A stretch of DNA of 64,000 nucleotides from positions 1 to 64,000 of the forward strand of contig NZ_JACIIV010000016.1 of assembly GCF_014205635.1 (NCBI RefSeq), given 5' to 3'. The notes under the pieces were generated by a model. It saw nothing but the letters and a program-made list of their open reading frames with translations, had not been told where the DNA came from and searched no databases. How positions within the stretch are numbered: position 1 is the stretch's first letter; every line of letters starts with the position of its first letter. The DNA is from Polymorphobacter multimanifer (lineage in GTDB: Bacteria; Pseudomonadota; Alphaproteobacteria; Sphingomonadales; Sphingomonadaceae). The position numbers were made by a program, and so were the translations under genes. Positions 11,523 through 57,660 of the stretch are shown here, one piece after another.

Positions 11523-12034
11523 CAGTTGGTGATCACTTCCTTCGGGTAGGTCCCCCAAAGATGCGCGCGCAGGATAAAGCCCGATCGGCCTTCGTTCGAC
11601 ACGCGGCACCACACATCCTCGCACAGCGTGATGTTGACGACCGTGCCGGGCTCGATCCGCCACGCCACCCGCGAGCGTGTATTGGGTGCAACATAAAGAA
11701 TGCGCTCGCGTTCCGTCACGACCGCGGTGCGGGTGCCGGTGAGCAGCGCCTTGTTCATCCAGCCGACGGTGCCATCGACATCGCGCACCTGCCGCCAGAT
11801 GCCATATTCGCGCACCACCTCGAGCGGCAGCCCCTTGCGGCGATACTCCCACAGGATCGGGAAGCGCTGGTCATCCGGCCCGGCGCGCATCATCGCCCTG
11901 TTCGAGCGCAACGATACGAATCGCGGCACCGGCAGCGTGGTGGTGCCATCGGCATTTTCCTGCGCGCGAACAGGTGTGGCGACAGAAGCGGCGAGCAGGC
12001 CGCACAGCAGGGTGAGGCGGAGGGAAGGGGGCAT
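11522..12034 (-). CDS. Exported protein with SH3-like domains
   Basis: Secreted protein of 170 residues with a signal peptide ([20 protein letters not shown], cleaved near VRAQ). Two bacterial SH3-like modules follow: one around [15 protein letters not shown]...[14 protein letters not shown] and a second around [17 protein letters not shown]...[10 protein letters not shown]. Such proteins often bind the cell wall, but no catalytic domain is present. It overlaps edd by one base at TGATG, so the pair is probably transcribed together. The ATG at 12034 gives a clean signal peptide. Confidence 0.85.
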
Positions 12035-12079
12035 GGATGCCGTCTTGACGCACACAAGGCGTGCGGGCAAGCCTTGCAT

Positions 12080-13090
12080 ATGTCCGCACGTCCCCGCCCC
12101 AAGGTCCCCCGCCCAAAGGTGATCGTCACCCGTCGGCTGCCGCAGCCGGTGGAAACGCGGATGGCCGAGCTTTTCGATGTCGAGCTCAACCTCGACGATT
12201 CGCCGATGAGTGCCGCAGCACTCGCCGATGCCGCCGGCCGCTGCGACGTGCTGGTGCCCACCGTCACCGACGAGATCGACGCCGCCGTGCTCGCTGCCGG
12301 TGCTGCCGGCGGGCGGTTGAAGCTGCTCGCCAATTTCGGCGTCGGCGTCGATCATATCGACCTCTCGGCCGCCCGCGCCCACCGCATCGCCACCACCAAC
12401 ACGCCGGGCGTGCTCACCGACGACACCGCCGACATGGTGATGGCGCTCATCCTCTCGGTGCCGCGCCGGCTGGGCGAAGGCGAGAAGTTGGTCCGCAGCG
12501 GCGAATGGCTCGGCTGGAGCCCTACCGGCATGCTCGGCCACCGCATCACCGGCAAGCGCCTCGGCATCATCGGCATGGGCCGCATCGGCCGCGCTGTCGC
12601 CACCCGCGCCCGCGCCTTCGGCCTCACGGTGCATTATCACAACCGCCACCGCCTCCCCGCCGAAGTCGAGAGCGAGCTTGAAGCGACGTGGTGGCAGAAC
12701 CTCGATGCCATGCTGGCGCGGGTCGATTTCATCACCCTCAACTGTCCGCACACCCCCGAAACGCATCACCTCATCGACGCCCGCCGCTTCGCGCTGATGC
12801 AGCGCCACGCCTATCTCATCAACGCCGCGCGCGGCGAGATCGTCGACGAGAATGCGCTGTGCGAAGCCCTGGCCGCCGGCCGCATCGCGGGTGCGGGCCT
12901 CGATGTCTTCGAGCGCGAGCCGGCGGTCGATCCCAGGCTGTTGGAACTCCCCGGCGTGGTGCTGCTGCCGCACATGGGCTCGGCCACCTTCGAGGGCCGC
13001 CAGGCAATGGGCGAGAAGGTCATTGCCAATATCCGGGTCTGGGCGGACGGGCATCGGCCGCCGGATCTGGTGTTGGAGGAGTGGGTGTAG
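12080..13090 (+). CDS. D-isomer-specific 2-hydroxyacid dehydrogenase (glyoxylate/hydroxypyruvate reductase type)
   Basis: NAD(P)-dependent dehydrogenase of 336 residues. The Rossmann motif is GIIGMGRIGRAVA. The catalytic Arg is in INAARGEIVDE, the Glu in DVFEREPAV and the His in LLPHMGSAT. LANFGVGVDHID in the substrate domain is typical of D-glycerate dehydrogenase/glyoxylate reductase. The exact substrate is not certain. It is divergent from the SH3 gene. A family-A structured repeat begins at the base after its stop codon. Confidence 0.9.
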   Translation: MSARPRPKVPRPKVIVTRRLPQPVETRMAELFDVELNLDDSPMSAAALADAAGRCDVLVPTVTDEIDAAVLAAGAAGGRLKLLANFGVGVDHIDLSAARAHRIATTNTPGVLTDDTADMVMALILSVPRRLGEGEKLVRSGEWLGWSPTGMLGHRITGKRLGIIGMGRIGRAVATRARAFGLTVHYHNRHRLPAEVESELEATWWQNLDAMLARVDFITLNCPHTPETHHLIDARRFALMQRHAYLINAARGEIVDENALCEALAAGRIAGAGLDVFEREPAVDPRLLELPGVVLLPHMGSATFEGRQAMGEKVIANIRVWADGHRPPDLVLEEWV

Positions 13091-13206
13091 CGCAGCGCGG
13101 CACAAAATAGCGGAGCTATTTTGCGACTCGCGCAAGCTCGGCCAGCGAGGCGGCTGGCCCTTAGCCAGCCGAACTCGTCTGACGTCAGTCGCGGCTTTGC
13201 CGCGAC
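13091..13206 (+). repeat. Family-A three-hairpin repeat, copy 1
   Basis: The element starts right after a stop codon. It has three perfect hairpins. Hairpin 1 (13103-13123) pairs CAAAATAGC with GCTATTTTG around GGA. Hairpin 2 (13152-13170) pairs GGCTGGC with GCCAGCC around CCTTA. Hairpin 3 (13188-13206) pairs GTCGCGGC with GCCGCGAC around TTT. Three related copies lie at 26314-26696. Stems differ between copies by paired changes while the loop of hairpin 3 stays TTT. The following bases up to 13287 hold only a short leader with the AAAGGAG site of the next gene. Confidence 0.85.
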
Positions 13207-13287
13207 CCTTTGCTAGACCCCCCTCCCTCCAAAGCCAGTCGCCGCCACCCTTCCACACCCCTAAGCTCCCCCCAAAGGAGCCCTCCC

Positions 13288-23585: not shown

Positions 23586-25439
23586 ATGGGCGAAACACCA
23601 TCCCCCCGCACACCGGCTCCCCGCAGCCCGGTCCCTCGCACCGCCAGCGCGCGGCGCGGCCTGCTGCTCGTCGCCACGGCAGCACTGCTCGTCACGCCGG
23701 TGGTCGGCCAACAACCGGAGCCCCCGCCAGCGCCAGCGCCGTCACCAAGGTCGCTGCTGCCCGAAGCCTTCCGCCAGTCGGACGAGGGGCAGACCGAAGC
23801 CGCACCGCTCCCCGGCGTCGCACCGCCCCCACCTGTCGGCGCGGCCGCACCCGAGGTGCTGTCCGGCGACGCGCTGCTGCAGCCACCACTCGATGGCGTC
23901 GAGCTCCCCGGCACCGCGGAAGCCCCCGATCCCTTTGCAAACGACCCCGTCCTCGATGCGCGAATGACCGGCGTGCTCGACACGGCCAGTGGCGGCTGGG
24001 GCAATGCAGTGTTCGCCGGCTCGGACGGTCGATACCTTGCCGCCCTCGCGCGCCGCATCGATGCGCCCGTTGCATCACGCTGGGCGTCGATCGGCCTGCG
24101 CCGCGCCCTCATCACCCGGGCAACGGCACCATCGCGCATTCGCGCCGGCGATTGGGTCGCGGCGCGCGCCTGGCTGCTGCTGCGGATGGGCGAGATCGAC
24201 GCCGCCTCGCTCCTCATCAGCCGGCTGCCCGTCGAAGCGCACACCAGCAACACTACGCGCATTGCCGGCCAGGTGGCGCTGGCAGCCGGAGATCTCGGCG
24301 CACTGTGCCCCATCGCCCGCGCCGGGCGGCAGGCAAGTGCCGACACGATGTGGGAGCTCGCCATGGGCATGTGCGCAGCCCTCGAAGGCGATGACATCTC
24401 GGCTGCCGCGCTGTTCGATTCGCTGCGCAACCGCCAGACCGGCATTTCCGCCTTCGATGTGCGCCTCGGCGAGCGCATCGCCGTCGTTGCTGGTGGCGGC
24501 GGCCGCGCCACCAACATCGAATGGTCCGAGGCGCCCCGCATAACTCCCTATCGCTACGGCGTGTCGATGGCCGCCGGCGTGCAGGTCCCTGCGGACCGGC
24601 TGACGTCGCTCGGCGCCGGCCGGCACGGCTGGTTCGTTCGCCAGCCGGCGCTGGCCCCGGCAGTTCGTCTCGCCAGCCTCGGTCCCGCTGCGGTGCAGGG
24701 CAGCCTTTCGGTGCAGGAATTCGTCTCGGGGATAGCAGCGCTCGCCCCCGACGATGCGGACACCAGCCGCGGCGCGCGGCTGCGCCAGGCCTTTGCCGGC
24801 GCCGGCCCCGTGCAACGCGTGGCGGCAATGAAGGCGATCTGGGACGAATCCGCCGAAGGCATGACCATCGAAGCCGCACGCTACGCCGGGCTGCTGCAGA
24901 CCGCCCCCGCCGCCGCCCGGCTGCCGGTGAGCGCCAGCGTGGCCGCCGACAGTGCGGACATCATCGCCAGCCTGCTCGCCGCCGGCAACACCGCACGCGC
25001 GCGCAGCTGGTGGCGCGTTGCGAGCGAAGCCGATGCCCCGGTGCGCGCCCGTGCCTGGGCGCTGCTGGCGGTGAGCGGCGGCATCGCCCCCACGGCAGAC
25101 GCTTTCAGCGATTGGCAGGATGCGACCAACGCCGATGACCGCAGCGCAGCACGGCTGCTCGCCGCGCTTGCCGGGCTGGGTCTGGCGCGCGAAAGCGGCT
25201 GGAACGGCCTCAAGGACGATCTGCTGCCCAAGGCGGAAACCAGCTGGAGCCGTGCCATCAGCGCCGCCGGCACGGCGCGGCGGCCGGGCGAAGTGGCCAT
25301 CCTCACCGCCACCGGCCTGCAGGGCGCCTGGGCCGATGTCCCGGCGCTGCACCTGTGGCGGATCACCGAGGCGCTCACCCGCGCCGGCCGCGTGCAGGAT
25401 GCGCGGCTGATCGCCGCCGAAGCGCTTACCCGCGCCTGA
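23586..25439 (+). CDS. Large exported protein of unknown function upstream of xerD
   Basis: Protein of 617 residues. A 28-residue basic, Pro-rich N terminus precedes one hydrophobic segment ([16 protein letters not shown]), then a Pro/Glu-rich linker. The rest is Ala/Arg-rich and helical, with repeated short helices such as [18 protein letters not shown], suggesting a TPR-like or solenoid fold in the periplasm. No catalytic motif is seen and the family is not recognised. It overlaps xerD as TGATG, so the two are co-translated. Confidence 0.7.
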
Positions 25440-26335
25440 TGGCCGAGAGCGACCAGAGCCTCATCGCCCTTTTCCTGGACATGCTCGCCAGCGAGCGCGG
25501 CGCCGCACGCAACACCCTCTCCGCCTATGCGTCCGATCTCGCACAGGCATCCTCCGCCCTTGAAGGCCGGCTCGCCGTTGCCGACGCCGCGGCTCTGGCC
25601 AGGCTGGCCGCGCACTGGATGCCGCTGGCGCGCGCATCGGCAGCGCGCAAGCTGTCGGCCGTGCGGCAGTTCATGTCGTTCCTGCTGCGCGAGGGCATCC
25701 GCAGCGACGATCCGGGGCGTGATCTGGCAATGCCCGCACAACCGCGCACCCTTCCAAAATCACTCGGGCCCGGCGATGTCGAGGCGCTGTTCACGACGCT
25801 TGCCGCGCGATGTGCAGCGTCCCCCGATGATGCCCGGCTGGTGCGGCTGCAGGCGCTCATCGAGCTGCTTTATGGTTCAGGCCTTCGGGCTTCCGAGTTG
25901 GTCAGCCTGCCGCGCCATGCGGTGCGGCCGGGCAGGGGGCATCTGGTCCTCGCCGGCAAGGGTGGCCGCGAGCGGCTGGTGCCGATCGGCCGCGCCGCAG
26001 AGGCTGCGGTGGCGGCGCATGTGGCGAATGTGCCGGCGGATGCGCGCTGGCTGTTCCCGTCGGGCAAGGCCCATCTCACCCGGCTGCGCCTCTGGCAGCT
26101 GGTCAAATGGTTGGCTGCCGAGGCGGGCATCCCGCCAGCGCGCATCAGCCCGCACGTGCTGCGCCATGCCTTCGCCACGCACCTGCTCGAGGGCGGGGCC
26201 GACCTGCGGGTGGTGCAGACTTTGCTCGGGCATGCCGATATCGCGACGACGCAGATTTACACGCATGTGGCTGGGCGGGCGTTGATCGCCCTGGTGAATG
26301 AACGGCATCCGCTGCGCAGCGCGGCGACAAAATAG
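25439..26335 (+). CDS. xerD: Site-specific tyrosine recombinase XerD
   Basis: Recombinase of 298 residues that acts with XerC at dif to resolve chromosome dimers. Catalytic residues are visible: Arg in GSGLRASEL (about 150), Lys in AGKGGRER, His and Arg in [10 protein letters not shown], His in LLGHADI and the nucleophile Tyr in TTQIYTHV. The start overlaps the preceding stop. The last residues and the TAG stop (26333-26335) are encoded by a family-A repeat whose first hairpin spans 26328-26348. The C terminus is therefore shaped by the repeat. Confidence 0.92.
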
Positions 26336-26428
26336 CGGCGCTATTTTGCGACTCGCGCAAGCACGGCCGGCGGGGCGGGCGCGCCTTCTGCGCCCGAACC
26401 CGTCCGACGGCGCGGGCTTTGCCCGCGC
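26314..26428 (+). repeat. Family-A three-hairpin repeat, copy 2 (overlaps the xerD stop)
   Basis: The element begins inside the last codons of xerD. Hairpin 1 (26328-26348) pairs CAAAATAGC with GCTATTTTG around GGC. Hairpin 2 (26376-26396) pairs CGGGCGC with GCGCCCG. Hairpin 3 (26410-26428) pairs GCGCGGGC with GCCCGCGC around TTT. The xerD stop codon TAG lies in the 5' arm of hairpin 1. Confidence 0.85.
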
Positions 26429-26432
26429 TCTT

Positions 26433-26516
26433 GCGCAGCGCGGCGACAAGATAGCGGCGCTATTTTGCGACTCGCGCAAGCACGCCCCGTCCGACGGCGC
26501 GGGCTTTGCCCGCGCC
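26433..26516 (+). repeat. Family-A repeat, copy 3 (lacks hairpin 2)
   Basis: A tandem copy directly behind copy 2. Hairpin 1 (26447-26467) has CAAGATAGC against GCTATTTTG, one G-T pair. Hairpin 2 is deleted. Hairpin 3 (26496-26516) pairs GGCGCGGGC with GCCCGCGCC around TTT. The whole gene-free stretch 26336-26696 consists of copies 2-4 plus about 70 unremarkable bases (26517-26584). Confidence 0.85.
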
Positions 26517-26584
26517 CTGTTCTTCCTTCCGTCCCTCCCTCTTGCTTCACCCAGCCACGCCGCCAGAAGAACAAGAAGAAAAGA

Positions 26585-26696
26585 GCGCGGGCAAAGCCTG
26601 CGCCGACGTCGGACGAGTTCGGTCAGCGAAGCTGCCCGCCTCGCCGGCCGGGTCTGATGCGAGTCGCGAAATAGCTTCGCTATTTCGTCGCCGCAT
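26585..26696 (-). repeat. Family-A three-hairpin repeat, copy 4 (inverted)
   Basis: An inverted copy that begins at the stop codon of the minus-strand gene at 26697. Read on the minus strand, hairpin 1 (26667-26687) pairs CGAAATAGC with GCTATTTCG around GAA. Hairpin 2 (26621-26637) pairs GGGCAGC with GCTGACC around TTC, with one mismatch. Hairpin 3 (26585-26603) pairs GCGCAGGC with GCCCGCGC around TTT. The change at the second base pair of hairpin 1 is compensated relative to the other copies. Confidence 0.82.
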
Positions 26697-27236
26697 TCAG
26701 ACTTTACACCCCTTCGCCCGCGCCGTGCCCTTGATATACGACCGCCGCACCGTGCCCGCATAAACCGCCGCCTGCGCATAGCGCTCGCGCTTCTGCGCGC
26801 CGGAAACGAAACGGATCACCCCGGCAAACGGAATCAGGCTCCCCGCAATCGCCTCGGTGGCGCCAAAGGCGAACTCTGCCGGCGTCTGCTTCTTCTTGTC
26901 GGCGCGAGCCTCCGCCGAGTCGACATCGGGCCCGACCATCTCGGTGATCTTGGTGACTTCGGCCGCATATTGCCGGCACGTCTTCAGCCCGGTGAGCGCA
27001 TAGGGATTTTCCATCATCGCTTCCAGCTCGGGCGGAACCTTCTTTTTCATCAAGTTGAGGTCTTTCAGCGGCTTGGTCGCAATATTCTCCATCGTGTCGA
27101 GCGCGCGATCACCGTCGTTTATCTTGTCGCTGCCCTTGTCCTTGGGGTCGGCAGTCTGGGCAGTGGCGGCCGCCGCGCCAAGCAGCAACGCCATGGCTGC
27201 GGCGAAGGTTGCCGTCGTTGTGGTCGGTCGTGACAT
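26697..27236 (-). CDS. Exported protein of unknown function
   Basis: Protein of 179 residues with a signal peptide (hydrophobic ATFAAAMALLLGAAAATAQ). The mature part is Lys/Asp-rich and contains KTCRQYAAEVTKITEMVGPD, a hydrophobic patch AIAGSLIPFAGVIRFVSGA and a basic C terminus ending GCKV. It has no recognised domain. The ATG at 27236 is preferred because GGAGA lies seven bases upstream. It is divergent from the rimP operon, and a family-A repeat follows its stop. Confidence 0.75.
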   Translation of the reverse strand: MSRPTTTTATFAAAMALLLGAAAATAQTADPKDKGSDKINDGDRALDTMENIATKPLKDLNLMKKKVPPELEAMMENPYALTGLKTCRQYAAEVTKITEMVGPDVDSAEARADKKKQTPAEFAFGATEAIAGSLIPFAGVIRFVSGAQKRERYAQAAVYAGTVRRSYIKGTARAKGCKV

Positions 27237-52328: not shown

Positions 52329-52383
52329 GGCGACAGATATCCGCCATCCGGACAGCTTTGCAAACGCCCCAAACCCGCAACGC

Positions 52384-52426
52384 AAGGGGTCTGGGGGCGC
52401 CGCCCCCAGCCGCCGGAGGCCCCTTC
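52384..52426 (-). repeat. Family-B stop-proximal hairpin element, copy 2
   Basis: On the minus strand the element begins next to the M28 gene stop. GGCCTCCGGCGG is followed by a hairpin CTGGGGGC/GCCCCCAG with loop GGC (52391-52409) and then ACCCCTT. The outer bases AAGGGG and CCCCTT can also pair. Confidence 0.8.
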
Positions 52427-54661
52427 CTACCCCATCACCCCCCGCGCCGCATCGATCCGCGCCGCAAAGCGCAGGATCGCTTCCGCCGTCTTCCCCGCAT
52501 AAGCATTGGCATCGGCAAAGCGTCGTTCCTCGATCGCCTCGCGCACGCCGGGCAGGGTCTTGGCGCCATAGCCGGTGAAGCGGCCCGGGGCGTAGAGCGA
52601 ATGCCGGTACCAAGGCCGGAACGGCAGCCCCTCGGGGATCAGCAGCGCCTGGTCGATCCCCATCAGCGCCTTGTTGAGCCGGTCGCGCGCAGTGGCATCG
52701 AGGCTGCCCCCCTTGGCGGCGAACGCCGCATCATAGGCGCGCGCGCTGGCTTCCAAAGTCGCCACCGCATTCTCCAGCGCCGCCAGCTCGATCTGCGGGG
52801 TCTTCTCCACCTCGGGCAGCTCCGCCACCGGCACCTTGGGGTCGCTCGCCAGCTTGTAGATGCCGGCAGCGGTCAGGCCCGCGCGCTTCTCGTCCTGCCG
52901 CTGGCGGTTGCTCACAAGTGCCCGCACCTCGGCCAGATAGCCCTTCACCGTCGCGGCGAGGTCGGTGAAGCGCACCGGCACAACCTCGGCCTCGGCGATC
53001 CGCAGCACCATCCGCCCCATCGTCTGCGAAAGCGTCGCGCCATACACCAGCCCCGGATCGTCGAAGCGCACGAAATGGTCATAGCTGTCGTAGATCGAAT
53101 GGTAGCTGCCCGAGCTCTCGTTCTCGCCGCCATAGCTGATGTTGAGCGACGGGATGCCGAGATGCTGCAGGAACGCCGAATAGTCCGATCCCGAGCCCAG
53201 CGGCCCGATCGGCAGGTCGCCCCCGGCCTCGGCCGCCACCAGCGCTGCATCGCTCAATCGCCCGCGCCCGTCATAGGCATCGGCACGCACTTTCGCGCGA
53301 AGGCGAGCACCTGCACTCACCCCCGTCTGCGGATCCTTCACATCGTTCGCCACCGCGTTGACGAGCTTCTGATACTGGTGGCTGCCCTGTGCCGAGAAGA
53401 ACCCGCGGCCGTTCGAATCGGAGTTGAGATACACCACCGCCTTCTTCCGCAGCTCGTCGCCATGGTGCTCGGCCCATTCGGTCGACCCCAGCAGCAGCGG
53501 CTCCTCGGCATCCCAGGCGGTGTAGACGATCGTCCGCGAAGGCTGCCACCCGGCCTTGGCCATCGCCCCCAGCGCCTTGCCCTCGCTCATCATCGCCACC
53601 ATTCCCGAAAGCGGATCGGACGCGCCGAACACCCAGCCATCGAAATGGTTGCCGCGCACCACCCACTCATCGGGCCGGTCCTTGCCCACCAGCTTGGCGA
53701 TCACATTGTTCGCCGGCTTCAGGGACCATTCGCTCTGCACCTTCAGCCGCAGCTGCACCTTGCCCGCCCCGCCGGTGTGGTAGGACAGCGGCAGCTGGCC
53801 CTTGAACTGCGCCGGCGCAATCGGCCCGCCGATCACAGCAAAAATCTTCATCGCATCGCCATAGGAGATCGGCAGCGTCGGGATCTTCATGAGCGCCGGC
53901 GCCGTCGCGCGGTCGAGCCGCTTGGCGCCCTTCACTGCACCATAGCCGGGTGTGAGCGGATCACCCGGATACAGCGTCATGTCCGCCACCGAGCCGCGCT
54001 GCACACCCGTCGAGGGCCGCCCGCCGCCGTTGGGATAGACCTCGGCATCGCCATAGCCATCCTGTGCCGGGTCCGAATAGATGAGCGAGCCGATCGCCCC
54101 CTGCTCCTGCGCCAGCTTGGGCTTCAACCCGCGCCAGCCGCCGCCATAGCGCGCCAGCGCGATCTTGCCCTTCACGCTGATTCCCATCCGCGCCAGCGCC
54201 TCATAATCCTCGGGCAGACCGTAATTCACATAGACGACATCGGCGGTCACATCGCCGTCCGCGCCAAACGCCACATAAGGCGGCAGCGCGCCCTCAAGCC
54301 GGTTCGACGTCTCGTCCTCGGGGATGCCCGGCTCCTGCCCCCCCAGCACGGGGCCACCAACTATCTCCAGCCGCGTCTCCAGCGGTGTCGGGTAGAGCAC
54401 ATCGAAGGTCTCGATCTCGGCCTGCCACCCCCAGGCACGGAACTGGTCGCGGATGAAGCGCGCATTCTCCAGATTGTGCGGGCTCCCGACATGGTTGGGC
54501 GCCGATGCCATCTGCTTGAGCCACGCCATCTGGTCGGCCGACTTCACACTGGCATCGAACCGGGCTTCAAGCGCTGCAATCTCCGCCGGCGTCGCTGCCC
54601 AGGCGCCCATGCTGCTGCTGCCGCTCATCAGCGCCGCAATCGCCAAAGTCATCATCCGCAT
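52427..54661 (-). CDS. Exported M28 family metallopeptidase (glutamate carboxypeptidase II-like)
   Basis: Protein of 744 residues with a signal peptide (MRMMTLAIAALMSGSSSMGA, then WAA). A PA domain lies in the first half (TADVVYVNYGLPEDYEAL). The M28 domain has RGNHFDGWVFGASDPLSG (zinc His and Asp), YTAWDAEEPLLLGS (catalytic and zinc Glu), LNSDSNGRG (Asp) and YHSIYDSYDHF (His). A dimerisation domain follows. It resembles glutamate carboxypeptidase II and would release amino acids from peptides in the periplasm. The start has GGAGGGG nine bases upstream. Confidence 0.92.
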   Translation of the reverse strand: MRMMTLAIAALMSGSSSMGAWAATPAEIAALEARFDASVKSADQMAWLKQMASAPNHVGSPHNLENARFIRDQFRAWGWQAEIETFDVLYPTPLETRLEIVGGPVLGGQEPGIPEDETSNRLEGALPPYVAFGADGDVTADVVYVNYGLPEDYEALARMGISVKGKIALARYGGGWRGLKPKLAQEQGAIGSLIYSDPAQDGYGDAEVYPNGGGRPSTGVQRGSVADMTLYPGDPLTPGYGAVKGAKRLDRATAPALMKIPTLPISYGDAMKIFAVIGGPIAPAQFKGQLPLSYHTGGAGKVQLRLKVQSEWSLKPANNVIAKLVGKDRPDEWVVRGNHFDGWVFGASDPLSGMVAMMSEGKALGAMAKAGWQPSRTIVYTAWDAEEPLLLGSTEWAEHHGDELRKKAVVYLNSDSNGRGFFSAQGSHQYQKLVNAVANDVKDPQTGVSAGARLRAKVRADAYDGRGRLSDAALVAAEAGGDLPIGPLGSGSDYSAFLQHLGIPSLNISYGGENESSGSYHSIYDSYDHFVRFDDPGLVYGATLSQTMGRMVLRIAEAEVVPVRFTDLAATVKGYLAEVRALVSNRQRQDEKRAGLTAAGIYKLASDPKVPVAELPEVEKTPQIELAALENAVATLEASARAYDAAFAAKGGSLDATARDRLNKALMGIDQALLIPEGLPFRPWYRHSLYAPGRFTGYGAKTLPGVREAIEERRFADANAYAGKTAEAILRFAARIDAARGVMG

Positions 54662-54768: not shown

Positions 54769-55551
54769 ATGCCAGTCTCCCAACAAGATATCGCCCTCAT
54801 CCAGCATCTCGCCGATGCCGCTGGCGCCGTCATCCGCCCGCACTTCCGCCGCCAGATCGCCGTCGAAACCAAGAGCGACGCCTCCCCCGTCACCCAGGCC
54901 GACGAGGCCGCCGAAACCGCCATCCGTCAGCTGCTGGCCGAGCATCGCCCGAACGACGGCGTCATCGGCGAGGAGCATGCCAGCACCAACGCCAGCGCGG
55001 CGCGGCTCTGGGTGATCGACCCCATCGACGGCACCCGCGCCTTCATCAGCGGCCGCCCGCTGTTCGGCACGCTGATAGCACTTCTGGAGGACGGCGTGCC
55101 GGTGCTCGGCATCATCGACCAATGCATCATCGGCGATCGCTGGCTCGGCGTGGCGGGCGAGCCGACCCTCTTCAACGGCGAGCCAACCCGAACCCGCGCC
55201 TGCGCCAGCCTCGCCGAGGCGCGCATCGGCACCACCAGCCCGCACGCCTTCGAGCTGGCCGACCTCACCGCCTTCGCCCGCGTCCAGCAGGTCGCCCTCG
55301 ATGTCCTCTACGGGGGAGATTGCCACAATTACGGCCTCGTCGCCTCGGGCCATCTCGATGCCGTGGTCGAAGCCAGCCTCAAGCTCCACGACTGGGCCGC
55401 CCTCGTCCCCATCATCGAGGGTGCCGGCGGCGCCATCACCGATTGGGAAGGCCACCCCCTCACCCAGACCAGCAACGGCCAGGTCATCGCCACCGGCGAC
55501 AAGACCCTCGTCGCCCAGATCGCAGCCCAACTAAAGGGGTCTGGGGCCTAA
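54769..55551 (+). CDS. Inositol-monophosphatase-family enzyme (histidinol-phosphatase type)
   Basis: Mg2+-dependent phosphatase of 260 residues. The metal-binding motifs are GEEHAS, WVIDPIDGTRAFISG and LHDWAALVPIIEGAGG. It resembles the HisN-type histidinol-phosphatases of alphaproteobacteria, but inositol phosphatase or 3'-phosphoadenosine phosphatase roles are not excluded. The last residues (KGSGA) and the TAA stop come from a family-B repeat, and the stop codon is the loop of its hairpin. It is divergent from the M28 peptidase. Confidence 0.88.
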   Translation: MPVSQQDIALIQHLADAAGAVIRPHFRRQIAVETKSDASPVTQADEAAETAIRQLLAEHRPNDGVIGEEHASTNASAARLWVIDPIDGTRAFISGRPLFGTLIALLEDGVPVLGIIDQCIIGDRWLGVAGEPTLFNGEPTRTRACASLAEARIGTTSPHAFELADLTAFARVQQVALDVLYGGDCHNYGLVASGHLDAVVEASLKLHDWAALVPIIEGAGGAITDWEGHPLTQTSNGQVIATGDKTLVAQIAAQLKGSGA

Positions 55552-55572
55552 GGCCCCAGCCGCCGGAGGCTA
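55534..55572 (-). repeat. Family-B stop-proximal hairpin element, copy 3
   Basis: On the minus strand it follows, and includes, the stop of the prolyl oligopeptidase gene: GCCTCCGGCGG, then a hairpin CTGGGGCC/GGCCCCAG with loop TTA (55541-55559), then ACCCCTTT. On the plus strand the loop TAA is the stop codon of the convergent gene. Confidence 0.82.
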
Positions 55573-57660
55573 CTTCCTCGTCAGGCCCGTCCAATACCCC
55601 GCAAACGCCCAAAGGTCCGCCGCCTCGGCGATGATCTTGTCGGTCGGCTTGCCGCTGCCATGCCCGGCGCGGGTTTCGATGCGGATCAGCTGCGGTTTCG
55701 GCCCCAGCTTCGCTGCCTGGATCGCGGCGGCATATTTGAAGCTGTGCCCCGGCACCACCCGGTCATCGGTATCGGCGGTGGTCACCAGAATGGCGGGGTA
55801 GGGGGTGCCGGCCTTGATGTTGTGGTAGGGCGAATAGGTCCGCAGCACCTTGAAGTCGGCGGCCTTGGCGGGGTCGCCATAATCGTCGATCCAGTAGCGC
55901 CCGGCGGTGAACTTGTCGAAGCGCAGCATGTCCATCACGCCGACCGCGGGCAGCGCCGCAGCAAACAGGTCGGGCCGCTGGTTGACGACCGCGCCCACGA
56001 GCAGCCCGCCGTTCGAGCCACCCTGGATGGCAAGCTGCGCGGGCGACGTCAGCCCCGCCTTCACCAGCGCTTCGCCGGCGCCGATGAAGTCGTCGAACAC
56101 ATTCTGCTTGTTCGCGAGCCGCCCGGCATCGTGCCAGGCCGCGCCATATTCGCCGCCGCCGCGCAGGTTGGCCTGTACGAAGATGCCGCCCATCGCCATC
56201 CACGCCAGCCGCGACGCCGAATAGCCCGGCGGCAACGAGATGTTGAAGCCGCCATAGCCATAGAGCAGGGCAGGGTGCGTCTTCGCGGGGTCGAGGTCCT
56301 TGCGGTGGCTCACGAACATCGGCACCCGCGTCCCGTCCTTCGAGGTGAAGAACATCTGCCGCACGACATAATCGGCGGCGTCGAACGCCACCTTGGGTTG
56401 GCGCAGCACGCTGGCGGCGTTCGATCGCGCATCATAGCGCCAGATCGTCGCCGGCGTGGCGAAGGACGAGAAGCTGAAATGCGTGACGCCGTCAGCACTC
56501 TCTTCGAAGCCCGTCACCGAGCCGATCCCCGGCAGCGGCACTTCGCCCACCAGCGCGCCGGTGGCTTCGTGCAGCCGCACCTTCGAGCGCGCATCGGCAA
56601 GCGTCTCGATCACGAAGCGGTTGCCCAACTTGGCAGCCCCCACGATCGTGTCGGGCCCTTCGGCCACCAGCTCCGTCATCGCCCCGGTGCGGGCATTCAT
56701 AGCGACGAGCCGGTAGCGCGGCGCTTGCTTGTTGGTGGTCAGGAACAGCGTGTCGCCCTCGCTCCCTGCCAACCCCCAGCTATGCTCCAGCCCCTTGATC
56801 AGCGTGCGCGGCGCTTCGCCCGAGGCGAGATCGGCCACCGTCACCTGAAACCGCTCGTCGGTGCCTTCGGACGAGGTGATCACCAGCCAGCGGCCATCCT
56901 CGCTCACTTCAGCCGAGTTGTTCCACTTGGGGTTTTCAGGCGTCGCAAACACCAGCCGGTCGGCCGATTGCGGCGTGCCGAGCGCGTGGAAGTAAACCTG
57001 CTGGTTGAGGTTCTCCGACTGAAATTCCTGTCCCTTCGCCGGGGCGGCAAAGCGCGAGTAGAAAAAGCCCTTGCCATCCTTCGTCCAGGCCAGGCCTGAG
57101 AACTTCACCCACTCGATCCGGTCGGCAAGGTCCGCCCCCGTCGCCACATCGCGCACCTTCACCGTCCGCCAGTCGCTGCCGCCATCCTGCACCGCATAGA
57201 GCAGGTGCTTGCCATCCGGCGACGGCTCCCATTCCGCCAGTGCGGTCGCGCCATCGGCCGCCCAGGGGTTGGGATCGATCAGAACCTTGTCGCCCGCATA
57301 AAGCACCGCCTGGTTCTGCAGCCCCGAATTGCGCGTGTAGAATTGCACGCCCCCACGCACCCGCGGCACGCCGAACCGCTCATAATCCCACAGCGCCTTC
57401 AGCCGCGCGGCAATCGCGTCGCGCTCGGGCAGGGTGGCGAGATAGGCACCCGTCACCTTGTTCTGCGCCGCCACCCATTCCGCCACCGCCGGCGAGGTGC
57501 GCACATCATCCTCGAGCCAGCGATACGGGTCGGCAATCCGCTCGCCGTGCAGCGTCTCGGCCACCGGGCCGGTCGCCGTCACCGGATAGGTCTGCGCCGT
57601 TGCCGCCACACTCATGCCCGAGCCCATCAAAGCCACCCCTGCTGCCAGCAATCCACGCAA
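55570..57660 (-). CDS. Exported prolyl oligopeptidase (S9A)
   Basis: Serine peptidase of 696 residues with a signal peptide (MRGLLAAGVALMGSGMSVAA). A seven-bladed propeller starts with DPYRWLEDD. The catalytic domain has the nucleophile Ser in IQGGSNGGLLVG (about 550), Asp in TADTDDRVVP and His in RAGHGSGKP. It cleaves short peptides after proline. The start is TTG at 57660, because a strong GGAGGG lies seven bases upstream and the signal peptide then begins normally; an ATG further upstream (57708) lacks a ribosome site. Confidence 0.92.
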   Translation of the reverse strand: MRGLLAAGVALMGSGMSVAATAQTYPVTATGPVAETLHGERIADPYRWLEDDVRTSPAVAEWVAAQNKVTGAYLATLPERDAIAARLKALWDYERFGVPRVRGGVQFYTRNSGLQNQAVLYAGDKVLIDPNPWAADGATALAEWEPSPDGKHLLYAVQDGGSDWRTVKVRDVATGADLADRIEWVKFSGLAWTKDGKGFFYSRFAAPAKGQEFQSENLNQQVYFHALGTPQSADRLVFATPENPKWNNSAEVSEDGRWLVITSSEGTDERFQVTVADLASGEAPRTLIKGLEHSWGLAGSEGDTLFLTTNKQAPRYRLVAMNARTGAMTELVAEGPDTIVGAAKLGNRFVIETLADARSKVRLHEATGALVGEVPLPGIGSVTGFEESADGVTHFSFSSFATPATIWRYDARSNAASVLRQPKVAFDAADYVVRQMFFTSKDGTRVPMFVSHRKDLDPAKTHPALLYGYGGFNISLPPGYSASRLAWMAMGGIFVQANLRGGGEYGAAWHDAGRLANKQNVFDDFIGAGEALVKAGLTSPAQLAIQGGSNGGLLVGAVVNQRPDLFAAALPAVGVMDMLRFDKFTAGRYWIDDYGDPAKAADFKVLRTYSPYHNIKAGTPYPAILVTTADTDDRVVPGHSFKYAAAIQAAKLGPKPQLIRIETRAGHGSGKPTDKIIAEAADLWAFAGYWTGLTRK

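Follow-up and report, generated by a model that had tools for sequence, protein, structure and literature searches.

A dispersed three-hairpin repeat at gene 3' ends in Sphingomonadaceae, probably a mosaic of movable terminator modules

Described repeats and the three-hairpin element

ERIC, BOX and Correia/NEMIS-type sequences are structured dispersed repeats of approximately 100-150 nt, BOX being modular as well, and BIMEs are mosaic in composition. Integron attC sites are folded, bear extrahelical bases and lie directly behind stop codons, with RYYYAAC/GTTRRRY core sites, and MITEs moved by a DDE transposase are expected to carry terminal inverted repeats. The element described here resembles REP, REPIN and BIME sequences in being a dispersed extragenic palindrome near gene 3' ends, and BIMEs also in being a mosaic, but it spans about 120 nt instead of a 20-40 nt unit and is made of three different hairpins in fixed order and orientation. 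It departs from ERIC, BOX and Correia repeats in its same-strand position at stop codons and its terminator-like last hairpin, and, unlike attC sites, its copies are scattered behind unrelated genes. With ordinary intrinsic terminators it has in common a GC hairpin and a T-rich tract at gene 3' ends, to which it adds two structured domains with nearly constant bulges and the behaviour of a repeat family. The nearest published account is that of the CGTC repeats by Di Nocera and others (2013; PMC3733652), where the REP CGTC class is defined by a CGTC-like tag, then a stem of 8-9 bp that begins with AT, and a loop of 4-5 nt, and where the CGTC-1 repeats of S. wittichii are located near ORF 3' ends, the convergent ones mostly within 20 bp. 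The structure of those repeats differs from that of the present element.

These classes were compared with a set of 140 elements, comprising 44 from the Polymorphobacter multimanifer genome and 96 from 80 other loci (among the matches listed). None of the 140 copies contained a CGTC-type hairpin (perfect stems only), and GTAG, the mark of the other REP class and of REPINs, was present within the first 8 nt of just 6 of them; in three P. multimanifer copies with GTAG, its TAG was the stop codon of the upstream gene. A RAYT/REP origin within the genus was likewise not supported, the Y1 transposase domain PF01797 being found in 1 of 19 genus genomes. The attC core pair RYYYAAC/GTTRRRY occurred in 0 of the 140 copies, and the best identity between element ends averaged 0.497 over them against 0.486 after shuffling, at odds with a MITE with terminal inverted repeats. 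Searches against Rfam 15 returned no match for the window and none on the element at six loci (E ≤5) and four loci (E ≤10), and no description of the element was seen in our search of openly accessible publications.

Fold, covariation and mosaic make-up

The window, i.e. the whole 64-kb stretch of DNA analysed, is contig C16 of an assembly of 72 contigs (3.9 Mb) and harbours four copies (Table 1). Three hairpins had been proposed at 13091-13206 in an earlier note made from the letters alone, and we found them as claimed: hairpin 1 with AAAATAGC/GCTATTTT, hairpin 2, and hairpin 3 with GTCGCGGC-TTT-GCCGCGAC. The base stem of hairpin 1 has a bulged A at 13126 and a bulged T at 13128. The same hairpin order, said to be common to the copies at 26314-26696, held overall but not for copy 3 (26433-26523), which is devoid of hairpin 2. 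Both stem variants on which the idea of paired differences in hairpin 3 was built, GTCGCGGC/GCCGCGAC in copy 1 and GCGCGGGC/GCCCGCGC in copy 2, were verified, as was the A-T to G-C change in hairpin 1 of copy 4; in copy 3 the change in this hairpin is one-sided only (A to G, giving G.T). The contacts with stop codons were also correct, copies 1 (TAG) and 4 (TGA) starting directly after a stop and copy 2 overlapping one, its hairpin 1 providing the TAG (26333-26335) of the tyrosine recombinase gene. Copies 2-4 all lie between this gene (25439-26335) and the convergent gene at 26697-27194. The called start of the gene upstream of copy 1 (11561-13090) is probably too early. Searching the window with covariance model R2 recovered three of the four copies, together with three weak opposite-strand matches (14-21 bits) at the same places, and model R1 recovered the fourth, copy 3. 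The tract 3' of hairpin 3, short at copy 1, is long and T-rich in genus g51. Elsewhere in the window, a 51-nt palindromic repeat (82% identical) is found at 52378-52428 and 55528-55578, in each case adjacent to the 3' end of a gene call on the minus strand; this is a second, simpler gene-end hairpin family.

Table 1 Three-hairpin copies in the 64-kb window and the genes next to them
Feature	Position	Strand	Details
Gene upstream of copy 1	11561-13090	+	C-terminal 330 aa are a D-isomer 2-hydroxyacid dehydrogenase
TAG stop of the upstream D-2-hydroxyacid dehydrogenase gene	13088-13090	+	abuts copy 1 directly
Copy 1, complete three-hairpin element	13091-13206	+	model match 13087-13214; 129 bits (R2), 144 bits (R1)
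Copy 1, hairpin 1	13095-13133	+	base stem GCGCGGC/G-a-C-t-CGCGC, upper stem CAAAATAGC/GCTATTTTG, GGA loop
Copy 1, hairpin 2	13140-13186	+	GGCCAGCGAG / CTCG-t-CTGACGTC, bulged T at 13178, G/AA internal loop, exchangeable upper stem
Copy 1, hairpin 3	13188-13206	+	GTCGCGGC TTT GCCGCGAC, terminator-like
Pyrimidine-rich tract with TTT, 3' of copy 1 hairpin 3	13207-13214	+	short here
Tyrosine recombinase, XerC/XerD type, upstream of copy 2	25439-26335	+	
Copy 2	26314-26423	+	hairpin 3 is GCGCGGGC-TTT-GCCCGCGC
Copy 3, tandem with copy 2, without hairpin 2	26433-26523	+	69 bits (R1); missed by R2
Copy 4	26590-26696	-	starts right after the TGA of gene 26697-27194 (-); points towards copies 2 and 3
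Gene upstream of copy 4	26697-27194	-	no NCBIfam or Pfam match

The element, of about 120 nt, is predicted to fold into three hairpins of fixed order with 41 base pairs. Hairpin 1 consists of a base stem with two bulged bases and a sequence-variable upper stem, often TAGC-GNA-GCTA. Hairpin 2 comprises CGGCC, its base stem is interrupted by a single bulged T, and it also has a G/AA internal loop and a variable upper stem. Hairpin 3 has a GC stem of some 8 bp and a TTT loop, and a T-rich stretch comes after it. Three alignments were used. A1 holds 25 of the 33 blastn matches in the P. multimanifer genome; A2, 96 copies from 80 loci (among the matches listed) that were picked by their hairpin 2 pattern, so that hairpin 2 owes part of its constancy in A2 to this choice; and A3, 73 copies (72 distinct) from other genomes that were drawn by and fitted to the model, 33 of the rows coming from the single genome G249. 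The bulged bases and the TTT loop varied little. In A1 the bulged A and the hairpin 2 bulge were each kept in 24 of 25 copies, the two internal-loop A's were kept in 25 and 21 copies, and the letters of the TTT loop in 24, 25 and 25. In A3 the hairpin 2 bulge was a T in 70 of 73 copies and the bulged A was an A in 67 of the 71 copies with a letter at that position; the AA side of the internal loop varied more (67/73 and 38/73).

An excess of compensating changes, which the earlier note had proposed to look for with a covariance model, was found in all three alignments. Two-sided changes affected 28 of the 41 pairs in A1, with a covariation score of 0.370 compared to 0.114 for shuffles and 0.053-0.082 when partners were slid; 34 of 41 pairs in the 96 copies of A2 (0.414 vs 0.101 shuffled); and 36 of 41 in A3 (0.538 vs 0.136, slid partners ≤0.090), where 95.7% of the cells were paired. 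Folding z-scores of the 44 P. multimanifer copies had a median of -3.53 (range -9.5 to -0.12). We take the 41-pair three-hairpin fold to be real.

That pairing kept during drift should reveal selection on the fold is a different matter. Pairing was kept, as had been claimed, but the inference drawn from copies of a single genome is weakened, since copies swap entire hairpins with one another. When copies were compared in pairs, the similarities of hairpins 1, 2 and 3 were uncorrelated among the 25 P. multimanifer copies (Spearman -0.02, -0.22 and 0.04) and weakly correlated in the 33 G249 rows (0.23, 0.20 and 0.29). In G249, hairpin 1 of locus L286 is letter-identical to that of L288, its hairpins 2 and 3 and its tail matching L281 instead. 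The hairpins thus behave as exchangeable modules, and many of the two-sided changes within one genome are, given this modularity, probably swaps, which recombination between copies would bring about. Orthologous copies had 0.63-0.98 of their letters in common, mostly 0.64-0.82 in multi-copy genomes, compared to an identity of 0.693 for unrelated pairs and often 0.8-0.87 for the best other copy of the same genome.

Independent variation of the modules, the composite L286 copy and the fact that, in multi-copy genomes, orthologous copies resemble each other scarcely more than unrelated ones do would all agree with gene conversion among pre-existing terminators, in which an immobile unit is homogenised and patched in place by recombination. 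This process does not by itself create copies at empty sites, yet the presence of the element is patchy, and in genome G314 a copy sits between a stop codon and a simple hairpin that is also present in G001, G003 and G011 (see below). We regard gene conversion as an improbable account, a step below the DNA-level alternative considered further on.

As to its boundaries, the repeat unit in P. multimanifer is sharp at both ends (approximately 0-125 nt). In G249 the three-hairpin unit forms the sharp 5' end of longer repeats that extend over 200-670 nt and fill much of the intergenic space. Further hairpins and a conserved stretch around GTGACAGCCTGAATCAAGGG were observed in loci L260-L288 of this genome, approximately 160-670 nt past the element start.

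Position at gene ends and the strand that folds

Distance and orientation relative to stop codons, which the earlier note had suggested measuring, turned out to be non-random in the set of 140 elements, with gene calls from a home-made finder, not standard annotation, leaving 2 of the 140 without an upstream gene call. The upstream gene was on the element's own strand in 121 of 138 cases (39/44 in P. multimanifer and 82/94 elsewhere). In 73 of these 121 the gene ended 1-9 nt inside the model start, which puts the start of the first stem 0-8 nt past the stop; among the rest, 12 overlapped by 10-30 nt, 27 were within 45 nt and 9 were further off. The remaining 17 of 138 elements had no same-strand upstream gene. 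The upstream genes are diverse, including acetoacetyl-CoA reductase (Sphingopyxis), ribosomal protein S9 and, from protein sequences read by eye, what we take to be LepA and FtsK. RNA genes are also served, as three P. multimanifer copies follow tRNA-Asn, tRNA-Val and tRNA-Lys and one follows the SRP RNA, all of them no more than a few nt away. At three places in this genome where convergent genes meet (contigs C1, C11 and C16), the intergenic region contained one copy per gene. In the one-contig genome G249, 22 of 30 copies examined had a same-strand upstream gene and 8 did not; three of the 22 genes were tRNA-Val, tRNA-Arg and tRNA-Gly. A serC leader RNA (RF00517, 45 bits; L271:1412-1464, minus strand) adjoins one copy that has no same-strand gene before it.

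Two further observations relate to placement. Among 70 adjacent copies, the stop codon was TAG in 28 and TAA in 19, compared to 39 and 25 of 195 P. multimanifer gene calls, two sets that come partly from different genomes. On contig 1 of G249, 35 of 47 copies ran along the assumed direction of replication, compared to 186 of 381 sampled genes, with the origin assumed at the contig start and the terminus first guessed from the element strands. Over five terminus positions the count varied between 32 and 35 of 47 (p 0.001-0.02, treating copies as independent, which they are not), and this co-orientation is only a lead.

Next, the 3' end of the element was inspected in the 104 of 140 copies in which hairpin 3 was recognised. 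The frequency of T at positions +3 to +8 after this hairpin was 0.26-0.52 and that of A was 0.03-0.08. The T tract was often poor outside G249, 56 of the 104 copies having 4 or more T in 12 nt; in the 30 G249 copies, T reached at least 0.5 over positions +2 to +25. Hairpin 3 had a median folding energy of -14.7 kcal/mol (103 of 140 copies). The combination by which intrinsic terminators are recognised, a stable GC hairpin and a T-rich tract, is therefore present, the T enrichment being strong in G249 and moderate elsewhere, and hairpin 3 with its tract probably acts as an intrinsic transcription terminator. By eye, some hairpin 2 modules are terminator-like too, with flanking A and T tracts. 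A defined, structured 3' unit with a terminator-like end and near-constant loop and bulge letters might also be expected of a family of small RNAs that are released from 3' ends and act in trans or as a sponge; however, we saw no conserved single-stranded seed beyond short linkers, and the upper stems and the hairpin 2 loop vary freely, which makes this explanation highly implausible.

The earlier note had left the choice between a role in mRNA 3' ends and one in DNA cruciforms. Isolated mismatches internal to stems were G.U or U.G in 38 cases and A.C or C.A in 11, in a test on the 140 copies from which 9 were excluded altogether and 6, 8 and 13 more for hairpins 1, 2 and 3, respectively. The same count on A3 gave 58 vs 11, with up to 25 of the 58 in one column where G.U is the rule. 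Whole-column counts showed no clear excess of G.U over A.C (13 vs 21 in A1 and 71 vs 55 in A2). We gave the stem-internal counts greater weight, as A1 and A2 are misaligned at the stem ends; it should be considered that this choice was made after the whole-column result was known. T was enriched after hairpin 3 (3.9 T in 12 nt) and no comparable A tract preceded it (1.8 A in 10 nt). Total folding energy, tried as a test of the RNA strand, went the opposite way, as the sense strand folded more stably than the antisense strand in no more than 14 of 44 P. multimanifer copies. Because of the predominance of G.U over A.C and of a T enrichment without a matching A tract, an RNA role is favoured, in agreement with the 3'-end placement; the raw columns and the energies of the sense strand leave some support for the cruciform alternative.

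A related possibility is that of a non-autonomous mobile DNA repeat which is recognised as folded single-stranded DNA and ends up behind genes because its insertion is tolerated at such sites. Its many copies (44 in P. multimanifer and 47 in G249), its sharp unit ends, its patchy presence at a fixed site, the near constancy of its extrahelical bases, the over-representation of TAG and TAA at adjacent copies and the co-orientation with replication in G249 would all fit such a repeat. However, the orientation of the element follows the upstream gene, G.U mismatches outnumber A.C, 18 of the 19 genus genomes gave no Y1 transposase match, no terminal inverted repeats were seen, and the argument from replication depends on an origin assumed at the contig start. 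Taken together, we consider a repeat of this kind unlikely, if the least unlikely of the rivals to a transcribed terminator repeat.

Distribution, turnover and proposed role

The range of the element was explored with R1, a covariance model built from the 25 P. multimanifer copies. Blastn with copy 1 had given 33 matches in its own genome (itself included); R1 gave 44 (E ≤0.01). Copies were found by R1 in all 19 genus genomes searched, the 18 others holding 9-49 each, and in none of 12 genomes from other families of the order. In larger samples, which were scored with stricter filters and for which counts are lower bounds, matches were obtained in at least 61 of 296 genomes of the order, all 61 in one family (f1) and in 14 of 79 genera, and in at least 2 of 240 genomes of the class, both again in f1. 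Within f1, model R2 detected the element in at least 26 of 119 genomes and 21 of 96 genera, five of these reaching at least 29 matches, and G249 searched alone yielded 47 (E ≤0.01). Among the matches listed in a pattern scan were Polymorphobacter, Sphingopyxis, Sphingomonas, Sphingosinicella, Sandaracinobacteroides and a Porphyrobacter MAG, and we take f1 to be the Sphingomonadaceae in the wide GTDB sense. The search of the genome and its relatives that had been proposed showed a repeat of many copies, common to a genus and confined to a single family in the genomes sampled.

Two gene ends were then compared across genomes. The 3' end of the dehydrogenase gene could be read in 23 of 24 genus genomes; the element was directly after the stop in 8 of the 23 and absent in 15, and 8 of these 15 carry a simple hairpin (by eye). 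On the dehydrogenase gene tree, 7 changes of presence were required, at least 3 of the changes being forced by well-supported branches, and the presence label was not clustered (358 of 500 shuffles were as low). Behind the SRP RNA gene, in a test using 30 of 31 genomes, the element was found in 7 of 19 genus genomes, two of the copies being weak (35.6 and 24.5 bits), and in 0 of 11 other genomes of the order. In G314, a weak copy (34.8 bits) is located between the dehydrogenase stop and a simple hairpin which, in the related genomes G001, G003 and G011, is 8 nt behind the stop. As a pattern, copies are gained and lost at fixed gene ends. A separate observation by eye concerns L236 and L239 (G008 and G010) behind the dehydrogenase stop, where hairpin 1 is replaced by a long perfect palindrome starting at or next to the TGA; in G008 it apparently draws the stop codon into the stem.

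Since copies come and go at gene ends and swap whole hairpins, the element behaves as a movable mosaic of terminator modules. Our main reading, to which we give a probability of roughly 0.6, is that of a dispersed, transcribed mosaic 3'-end or terminator repeat of Sphingomonadaceae, built of such modules. The unit of about 120 nt would be placed directly behind stop codons, and also behind some tRNA and SRP RNA genes, where hairpin 3 and the T-rich tract would terminate transcription. Hairpins 1 and 2 would fill the stretch from gene to terminator so that next to none of its RNA stays unpaired and, with their near-constant bulges and G/AA loop, probably protect the 3' end against RNases or bind a protein. 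Gain and loss at gene ends and the exchange of whole hairpins would proceed by recombination or through some mobiliser. A more specific version can be put forward only tentatively, and we consider it appreciably less probable: a 'mobile terminator', i.e. a ready-made 3' UTR that spreads in register with gene, tRNA and SRP RNA ends, whose hairpins are cassette-like and whose bulges dock a putative trans-acting factor, which could be a protein of RNA 3' ends or a nuclease that mobilises the element as a folded single strand.

The common view is that each terminator originates and decays in place, and here one structured 3' end is common to dozens of unrelated genes per genome. It should be borne in mind that compensating changes within one genome can stem from hairpin swapping and not from stepwise selection. 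The element keeps its fold despite large sequence change, and related species differ in whether a given gene end carries it. It thereby offers one system for three questions: in what way evolution rewires 3' ends, how a repeat gets placed exactly at stop codons and at the ends of RNA genes, and which factor recognises the constant bulges.
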